From assembly GCA_025937135.1 (NCBI GenBank), contig JAICRZ010000009.1:1-36173 (forward strand): a DNA stretch of 36,173 nucleotides. Reading direction: 5' to 3'. The stretch comes from Thermoleophilaceae bacterium. Its GTDB lineage: Bacteria; Actinomycetota; Thermoleophilia; Solirubrobacterales; Thermoleophilaceae. The notes beneath the pieces were generated by a model. The model had not been told where the DNA came from. It saw nothing but the letters and a program-made list of their open reading frames with translations, and did not search any database. Made by a program: the position numbers and the translations under genes. Shown one piece after another: positions 20,660 through 21,731 of this stretch (within the stretch, counting starts at the first letter, position 1; each line of letters opens with the position of its first letter).

Positions 20660-21209
20660 GCCACCGCTCGCGCCACCCGATCCCCCGCTCAGCGACGGTG
20701 TCGTGACGCTCCGCGCCTGGCGCGACAGCGACGTCGCGGCCCTGCCGGCGCTGATGAACGAGGAGGCGATCGCGCGCTGGACGCCCGCGCCGTCGCCGTA
20801 CGAGGAGCGGCACGCGATCGAGTGGCTCGCGACGCACTCCACGCTGATGCGGCGACGCAGCGAGCTGCCGCTCGCGGTCGTGGCGGCTGACGGTGGCGAG
20901 CTGCTGGGATCGATCGCGCTTCGCTTTCCGGAGGACCGGCGCGGCGAGCTCGGCTACGTCATCGCCGCGCCCGAGCGACGACGCGGATATGCCACGCGGG
21001 CGGTGCGCCTGTACGCACGCTGGGCGTTCGAGGAACTCCGGATCGAGCGGTTGGAGCTGCTGGTGCAGACCGACAACGAGGCGTCGCTGGCGCTCGCGGA
21101 GCGGGTCGGGTTCAGGCGTGAGGGCGTCCTGCGCTCGTACCGCTCCCTGCGCGGCCGCCGCGTGGACATGGTGGTGCTCGGGATGCTGCGGGGCGAGCTG
21201 CGCTCATGA
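20658..21209 (+). CDS. GNAT family N-acetyltransferase (RimJ/RimL-like)
   Basis: VVTLRAWRDSDVAALPALMNEEAIARW...GELGYVIAAPERRRGYATRAVRLYARWAFEELRIERLELLVQTDNEASLALAERVGFRREGVLRSY. Confidence 0.92.
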   Translation: MPPLAPPDPPLSDGVVTLRAWRDSDVAALPALMNEEAIARWTPAPSPYEERHAIEWLATHSTLMRRRSELPLAVVAADGGELLGSIALRFPEDRRGELGYVIAAPERRRGYATRAVRLYARWAFEELRIERLELLVQTDNEASLALAERVGFRREGVLRSYRSLRGRRVDMVVLGMLRGELRS

Positions 21210-21731
21210 AAAGAGCCGCGCGATGCGCGGCTCTTGTGGAGTGGAGCTAGCCGGGCTCGAACCGGCGACCTCCTGCGTGCCACGCAGGCGCTCTCCCAAC
21301 TGAGCTATAGCCCCAAGACTCAGTTCGTACTCGGCGGCTGAGTGTAGCCGCTTGAGCTGATTGTTCTTCGCCGGCGAGAGGCGAAGATGCATGCTCCCGC
21401 TGGGCGGCAATTCATCGATCGGAATCAGGTAGCACCGGCGAAGGTCGTGGCAGTAGATCGCTACGGCGTCGACCTCTTCCGCACTGTAGGTCGTGCGCTC
21501 CCAACTTCCGCCGCTGACCAGTCGGAAGGTTCGCGCCTTGACGTCCACAACGTTCCGACGGCGCCTTGCCCATTTGCATTGCACGCGCGCTAGGCCATCC
21601 GCCGTCTCGAAGACCAGGTCGTAGCGACGGTCCTCGAAGACGGGCTTCAGAACCGGGATGCCAAGCCTTGTCGCGGCCGCAGCGACTTCGGCTTCGGCTA
21701 TCGCGCCCTTCTGATTCGGAGTCCATTCCAC
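21204..21731 (-). CDS. PD-(D/E)XK-like endonuclease (resembles group I intron-associated PDDEXK homing endonucleases); ORF reads in frame through the tRNA-Ala gene
   Basis: EWTPNQKGAIAEAEVAAAATRLGIPVLKPVFEDRRYDLVFETADGLARVQCKWARRRRNVVDVKA...YSAEEVDAVAIYCHDLRRCYLIPIDELPPSGSMHLRLSPAKNNQ; the last 36 codons (GAIAQLGERLRGTQEVAGSSPASSTPQEPRIARLFS) are tRNA plus terminator sequence. Confidence 0.75.
   Translation of the reverse strand: MEWTPNQKGAIAEAEVAAAATRLGIPVLKPVFEDRRYDLVFETADGLARVQCKWARRRRNVVDVKARTFRLVSGGSWERTTYSAEEVDAVAIYCHDLRRCYLIPIDELPPSGSMHLRLSPAKNNQLKRLHSAAEYELSLGAIAQLGERLRGTQEVAGSSPASSTPQEPRIARLFS
21209..21235 (-). terminator. Rho-independent terminator following tRNA-Ala (minus strand)
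   Basis: Perfect 11-bp stem AAGAGCCGCGC-ATC-GCGCGGCTCTT (21211-21235) with TTTT on the minus strand. Confidence 0.85.
21242..21314 (-). tRNA. tRNA-Ala (anticodon GGC)
   Basis: GGGGCTATAGCTCAGTTGGGAGAGCGCCTGCGTGGCACGCAGGAGGTCGCCGGTTCGAGCCCGGCTAGCTCCA folds as a cloverleaf: acceptor GGGGCTA/TAGCTCC, anticodon loop GTGGCAC, T-arm GGTTCGAGCCC. CCA not encoded. Confidence 0.97.

Follow-up and report, generated by a model that had tools for sequence, protein, structure and literature searches.

A putative LexA-controlled homing-endonuclease gene that ends flush on tRNA-Ala(GGC) in Thermoleophilaceae

Overview

In the Thermoleophilaceae DNA analysed here (the window; 36,173 nt), a nuclease gene runs without any spacer into a tRNA-Ala(GGC) gene on the same strand. 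This arrangement is real, conserved and unusual. It is best read as a LexA-controlled, tRNA-Ala(GGC)-anchored, free-standing homing-endonuclease element, for which we infer both cleavage and homing; judged from sequence comparison, the probability of this reading is about 0.7. The junction had already been pointed out from the letters of the window alone (the sequence-only reading). Beyond that reading, the analysis finds a predicted LexA/SOS promoter, a predicted tRNA promoter within the nuclease codons, a Phd-like domain that follows in frame in relatives, further tRNA species as neighbours and a second, HNH-type family with a similar arrangement.

The nuclease gene and its junction with the tRNA

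The nuclease is encoded in a 175-codon ORF on the minus strand (21204-21731) with a GTG start. Residues 6-137 match PF11645 in Pfam (4.5e-30; bit score 104.9 against a cut-off of 26.1), covering profile positions 4-137 of 138. The best PDB sequence for the nuclease in phmmer is 2OST (1.5e-7), which is I-Ssp6803I. The AlphaFold model of residues 1-139 has a pLDDT of 95, and its top four Foldseek matches are the four 2OST chains (2ost_A: E 2.4e-10, TM 0.74/0.70). D38, Q51 and K53, the catalytic D and QxK, are invariant in an alignment of 51 sequences. By profile, fold and catalytic residues, codons 1-139 (21315..21731, minus strand) encode a full-length member of the PF11645 PDDEXK_5/I-Ssp6803I family. 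The sequence-only reading had proposed just such a PD-(D/E)XK fold near I-Ssp6803I; the HMM search, phmmer and the structural comparison all support it. The domain is already complete at the tRNA boundary.

The tRNA-Ala(GGC) gene lies at 21241-21314 on the minus strand according to ARAGORN; Rfam agrees (21242-21314, 3e-13). The last nuclease codon ends at 21315, and codon 140 begins at 21314, the first tRNA base. ARAGORN, Rfam and the ORF coordinates thus confirm the claimed zero-spacer junction. The claim that no intron is involved also stands: Rfam cmscan finds no group I intron at the window locus and the tRNA is intact. A group I intron remnant was considered and rejected, as Rfam gives no match.

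Past the tRNA, the ORF has a short tail (21204..21240, minus strand) which reads STPQEPRIARLFS and extends into the predicted terminator of the tRNA, a G+C-rich hairpin followed by a T-run, read from the sequence at the tRNA 3' end (21210..21236, minus strand). The tail is not conserved in the window copy; in 17 relatives a Phd/YefM-like domain occupies this place. The conserved upstream neighbour is rsfS (21778..22122, minus strand), which serves below as a marker of filled, decayed and empty sites. On the other side a GNAT acetyltransferase gene is convergent (20658..21209, plus strand); only the same-genus genome shares it at this position.

The window tRNA is the sole GGC tRNA-Ala seen in its genome assembly, which is 82% complete. 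A search by 5' pattern finds one GGC tRNA-Ala per genome in six genomes, including the single-contig G047. Since it is the only GGC tRNA-Ala found in these six genomes, the tRNA is very likely essential.

Association with tRNA genes across Actinomycetota

PF11645 genes were sought in 120 relatives (43 of 121 genomes positive) and in 397 genomes across the phylum (41 positive). All loci except a few very weak PF11645 matches were retrieved, and tRNAs were placed by ARAGORN. A tRNA lies within about 160 bp at 86 of 93 PF11645 loci (519 Actinomycetota genomes). The remaining seven comprise two contig ends, three genes approximately 420 bp from tRNA-Pro(GGG) and two very weak matches. As a control, none of 30 PIN-domain loci of relatives has a tRNA within 1.5 kb (Fisher 1e-25); the adjacency of nuclease and tRNA is more than chance. 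The tRNA anchoring suggested for the window gene therefore holds for its homologues at large.

Seven tRNA species are found within 160 bp of PF11645 genes, and the flanks differ. Thirty-seven loci lie upstream of tRNA-Ala(GGC), mostly flush; 19 lie upstream of tRNA-Tyr(GTA) and about nine are convergent on the 3' end of tRNA-Ala(TGC). The others are associated with Thr(TGT), Thr(CGT), Arg(TCT) or Arg(CCG), or are divergent from Ala(GGC). Thirty copies, including that of the window, abut tRNA-Ala(GGC) in one and the same phase, with a spacing of zero to a few bases. Distance and strand are thus fixed within the Ala(GGC) clade, as the sequence-only reading would have it, and vary between clades.

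A tree of 86 nucleases shows 17 changes of tRNA label or geometry against a shuffled mean of 47 and minimum of 13, and is weakly resolved, with few columns (131) and many open forks. The nuclease clades appear to be specific to one tRNA species each; vertical descent could keep part of this association within a clade.

In five loci from other Actinomycetota (L042, L044, L034, L051 and L054), the nuclease is divergent from tRNA-Ala(GGC) and starts approximately 90 bp from the tRNA 5' end. These loci have a different insertion geometry and no SOS box. The window genome also has a second PF11645 nuclease (L073/L136; G000:C142:8100-8424), which is located 14 nt upstream of tRNA-Tyr(GTA) and has an exact SOS box.

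A LexA-type operator upstream of the nuclease

An SOS box, CGAACTAGTGTTCG (CGAAC-N4-GTTCG), is located 4 nt upstream of the GTG start (21736..21749, minus strand). Just upstream of it is a CC[AG]TCC-type motif, TTCCGTCCG (21755..21763, minus strand), which may form part of the promoter. Of 36 relatives with a box, 22 have a motif of this type, and it is also seen at HNH and LAGLIDADG genes that carry an SOS box.

The 2.97-Mb window genome contains 14 exact SOS boxes, compared with two matches to a reversed-pattern control. Genes with exact boxes include lexA, a dinB/IMS gene, both PF11645 nucleases, a LAGLIDADG gene and an HNH gene (this label was read from the sequence; Pfam gives no match). 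Among 94 upstream regions of the family, 24 have an exact box and 12 a box with one mismatch; 278 kb of surrounding sequence contains only two exact and 21 one-mismatch boxes (Fisher 1e-28). Nucleases of the Ala(GGC), Tyr and Arg(CCG) clades often have a box; in the same 94 regions, none is seen in the clades at Ala(TGC), Thr(TGT) and Arg(TCT) or in the divergent Ala clade. Consequently, LexA control is not family-wide.

The motif upstream of the window nuclease, being the same as that at lexA, is a predicted LexA-type operator, and the nuclease is apparently switched on by DNA damage. According to the sequence-only reading, the nuclease would be made only when tRNA processing lags; a LexA/SOS promoter seems a likelier main switch than RNase P maturation.

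Other SOS-boxed genes of the window genome were also considered. The HNH-type gene (L138:1501-2219; G000:C188:34032-34749) has an exact SOS box and lies approximately 25 bp 3' of tRNA-Gln(TTG). Its homologues in relatives (L143-L172) are at tRNA-Gln, either TTG or CTG, in 30 of 30 loci and are often SOS-boxed; by sequence, the HNH genes appear to be a second, unrelated tRNA-anchored nuclease family. A free-standing LAGLIDADG_1 gene (L131:1501-2700; G000:C72) has an exact SOS box and a TTCCGTCC motif, with no tRNA nearby. LAGLIDADG genes were rejected as another class anchored on tRNAs, since 61 genomes hold only two loci and the one in the window's own genome has no tRNA within 1.5 kb. Finally, an SOS-boxed radical-SAM gene (L135; G000:C133:8890) seems to contain an intein-like Hint stretch within its frame (8e-4, below the curated cut-off).

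Presence, decay and possible spread

The gap between rsfS and the tRNA distinguishes three states of the site. In the family to which the window belongs, it is 441-480 bp with a nuclease; where the copy has decayed it measures 367 and 272 bp, and at empty sites 23, 53, 58, 60 and 61 bp. All three states are seen in genus g9, where G020 is filled, G009 half-deleted and G026 empty. Frameshifted copies are common, and truncated and deleted ones are also found at the same site; a search of the genome contigs with a single nuclease protein gave one locus, frameshifted, at tRNA-Ala. Patchy presence and empty allelic sites, as for a free-standing homing endonuclease, are thus both found at rsfS/tRNA-Ala, including the empty syntenic sites that the sequence-only reading had proposed to seek in relatives.

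Divergence of the nuclease appears to be out of step with that of the host. In G000 and G001, which belong to one genus, rsfS is 92% identical and the nuclease 50%; in G049 and G051 the values are 84% and 45%. Between L004 and L006, which are from different families, rsfS is 52% identical and the nuclease 60%. Together with patchiness, decay and empty sites, this bears out the suggestion of selfish behaviour.

At loci with unlike flanks, DNA homology starts at the SOS promoter, approximately -443 to -447 from the tRNA, and extends either to the tRNA 3' end or past the Phd-like part. A mobile unit consisting of promoter, nuclease and tRNA (with or without Phd) would be expected to have such limits. 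Because a conserved tRNA by itself would stop homology at the same point, the right edge carries less weight than the left. The identity mismatches and the unit-limited homology favour horizontal spread between hosts, though the tree is weakly supported. No plasmid carriage was detected by tblastn against 72,556 plasmids, and an IMG/VR scan with query A2 (A1 is too divergent to scan) showed no viral carriage of close relatives.

These data also bear on whether the nuclease is a domesticated host gene, an SOS-regulated repair or stress nuclease that is found by tRNAs through conserved gene order and does not home. Such a gene might well share its LexA box with lexA and dinB, be under purifying selection (dN/dS is about 0.18-0.5 in intact nuclease pairs, a range that also suits the homing reading) and have a long-standing rsfS neighbourhood in one family. 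It would not be expected in only 43 of 121 genomes, to be frameshifted, truncated or deleted at the same site, to lie near seven tRNA species with unlike flanks, or to diverge without regard to its host. Domestication is therefore considered unlikely.

A predicted tRNA promoter within the nuclease codons

Empty sites have TAGACT-type -10 boxes approximately 20 nt ahead of the tRNA. In the window, the predicted -10 box of the tRNA-Ala promoter is TACACT (21341..21346, minus strand), which lies in the nuclease codons CTA CAC TCA (L-H-S). TANNNT is found at -21 to -32, inside nuclease codons, in 29 of the 30 abutting copies. The rare codons CTA, GTA, ATA and TTA occur at the -10 column in 19/30 abutting copies compared with 1/30 non-abutting copies (Fisher 8e-7); the background of NTA codons is about 4-7%. 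In L015 the nuclease has a stop approximately 26 nt before the tRNA, and TACACT is in the spacer instead. A promoter embedded in this way would explain how flush insertion at a very likely essential tRNA is tolerated.

Probable translation through the tRNA

Whenever a copy abuts tRNA-Ala(GGC), its frame runs into the tRNA in phase 0 and so misses the TAG at tRNA bases 8-10. In these copies the stop codon is always inside or past the tRNA, so that cleavage at the tRNA 5' end would give a non-stop mRNA. Five loci at tRNA-Thr (L002, L003, L040, L041 and L088) are in another phase, and the nuclease stop is the TAG of tRNA bases 8-10.

In 17 relatives the frame counted from the tRNA start continues without a stop into a PhdYeFM-like stretch beyond the tRNA. 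Matches to PhdYeFM_antitox (7.9e-6 in L006, 1.4e-7 in L005) cover only the N-terminal half of the model. There is no ATG, GTG or TTG between the tRNA and the Phd-like domain in 13 of the 17 loci. Frame 0 is found in 17/17: thirteen loci combine a 73-nt tRNA with a spacer of 2 mod 3, and four a 74-nt tRNA with a spacer of 1 mod 3. The one-base change in tRNA length is thus offset by the spacer, and none of the 17 loci loses the frame. The domain is carried by about half of the Ala(GGC) copies; the window copy lacks it. It is absent from 14/14 tRNA-Ala sites without an intact nuclease, and at one of the 17 fusion loci (L066) the nuclease part has decayed. An AlphaFold model of the L006 fusion, made without an alignment, was poor (pLDDT 37.5) and was left out of the conclusions.

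This pattern of reading frames is strong evidence that the tRNA is translated as a linker at the 17 fusion loci. The sequence-only reading had warned that the tRNA-derived tail could be an ORF-calling artefact; this may be true of the window copy, but it fails for the family in view of the 17 in-frame fusions.

Reading frames and promoter also weigh on whether tRNA genes are merely permissive hot spots, with a nuclease that has no tRNA target and a read-through that is accidental. tRNA genes are common insertion sites, and the window tail past the tRNA is indeed not conserved. Mere permissiveness does not account for clades that each keep to one tRNA species, the phase shared by 30 abutting copies, compensated tRNA lengths, rare codons at the -10 box or the lack of any tRNA preference in PIN genes; it is quite improbable. 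Least probable is a toxin-antitoxin-like stress module, in which an SOS-induced nuclease toxin is paired with a Phd-type antitoxin domain and tRNA coupling senses tRNA processing: SOS control and the PhdYeFM_antitox matches in relatives would suit it, but the Phd-like part is fused rather than separate, having no start of its own in 13/17 loci, matches only half of the Phd model and is lacking in more than half of the Ala(GGC) copies.

Proposed mechanism

In a homing-endonuclease element of the kind favoured here, the nuclease gene would have its own LexA-repressed promoter, and its last codons would hold the core promoter of the tRNA; as the gene ends flush, insertion would leave the essential tRNA transcribed. 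In the resting cell, the nuclease would be silenced by LexA while the tRNA is made from the internal promoter. Upon DNA damage, LexA would be cleaved and a long transcript spanning nuclease and tRNA produced. The nuclease, made alongside RecA induction, would then cut an unoccupied tRNA-Ala allele, its presumed target, and repair would copy the element into the cut allele. Below LexA, RNase P may add another level of control: by cleaving at the 5' end of the tRNA it would yield a non-stop mRNA and cap nuclease output. Transcripts that escape this processing would, for about half of the Ala(GGC) copies, also encode the Phd/YefM-like domain, whose role is putative, with the tRNA as inter-domain linker.

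A more far-reaching proposal is that a protein-coding gene contains a complete, essential, same-strand tRNA gene in frame and has been selected for translation through it. The transcript would become either tRNA, if RNase P cleaves it, or a nuclease-Phd fusion, if it does not, and the system would be part of a wider LexA-controlled, tRNA-anchored homing class with at least two unrelated nuclease folds. The chances of this proposal are about even.

Comparison with known systems

I-Ssp6803I is a PD-(D/E)XK homing endonuclease encoded in a group I intron of a cyanobacterial tRNA-fMet gene. The window nuclease shares its family, fold and D..QxK arrangement, and a tRNA gene as home. In contrast to I-Ssp6803I, the window gene has no intron, lies outside the tRNA and flush with its 5' end, and has a predicted LexA promoter. 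A homologous PDDEXK gene adjoins a tRNA in the haloarchaeal tailed virus HSTV-4 and its kin; in HSTV-4 (MZ334501.1; L204:2345-2881) it is 2 bp downstream of the tRNA-Asn(GTT) 3' end. In contrast to the window gene, the viral gene is on the other side of the tRNA and is carried by an archaeal virus.

SegB of phages T4 and T6 is a free-standing GIY-YIG homing endonuclease found in phage tRNA clusters, which cuts within tRNA genes (PMC13096335). Like the window nuclease, it is free-standing and tRNA-associated, and the window nuclease would likewise cut at a tRNA gene. It differs in having another fold and in being phage-borne rather than chromosomal; in the parts of that account available, an SOS box, an embedded promoter and an ORF through the tRNA are not reported for SegB (PMC13096335). 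HNH homing endonucleases are also found within mycobacterial tRNA gene clusters (PMC6582537). These are likewise homing-type nuclease genes among tRNAs on actinobacterial chromosomes, but in large transferred tRNA clusters (PMC6582537); the present elements use single host tRNA genes.

Searches of the open-access literature revealed no account of homing genes that are controlled by LexA, carry a promoter or span a tRNA. As a selfish homing gene, the element seems to be of a new design, and the ORF running through the tRNA may be new outright. It would provide a biological reason for ORFs with a tRNA-derived tail, a class usually dismissed, and it opens to direct test the tRNA preference of the family, the SOS link and the possibility that mRNA and tRNA exclude each other. 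To our knowledge, introns and inteins are the known routes by which homing genes enter essential genes without harm; a third route is visible here, in which the element carries the promoter of the host gene in its own codons and ends flush on that gene.
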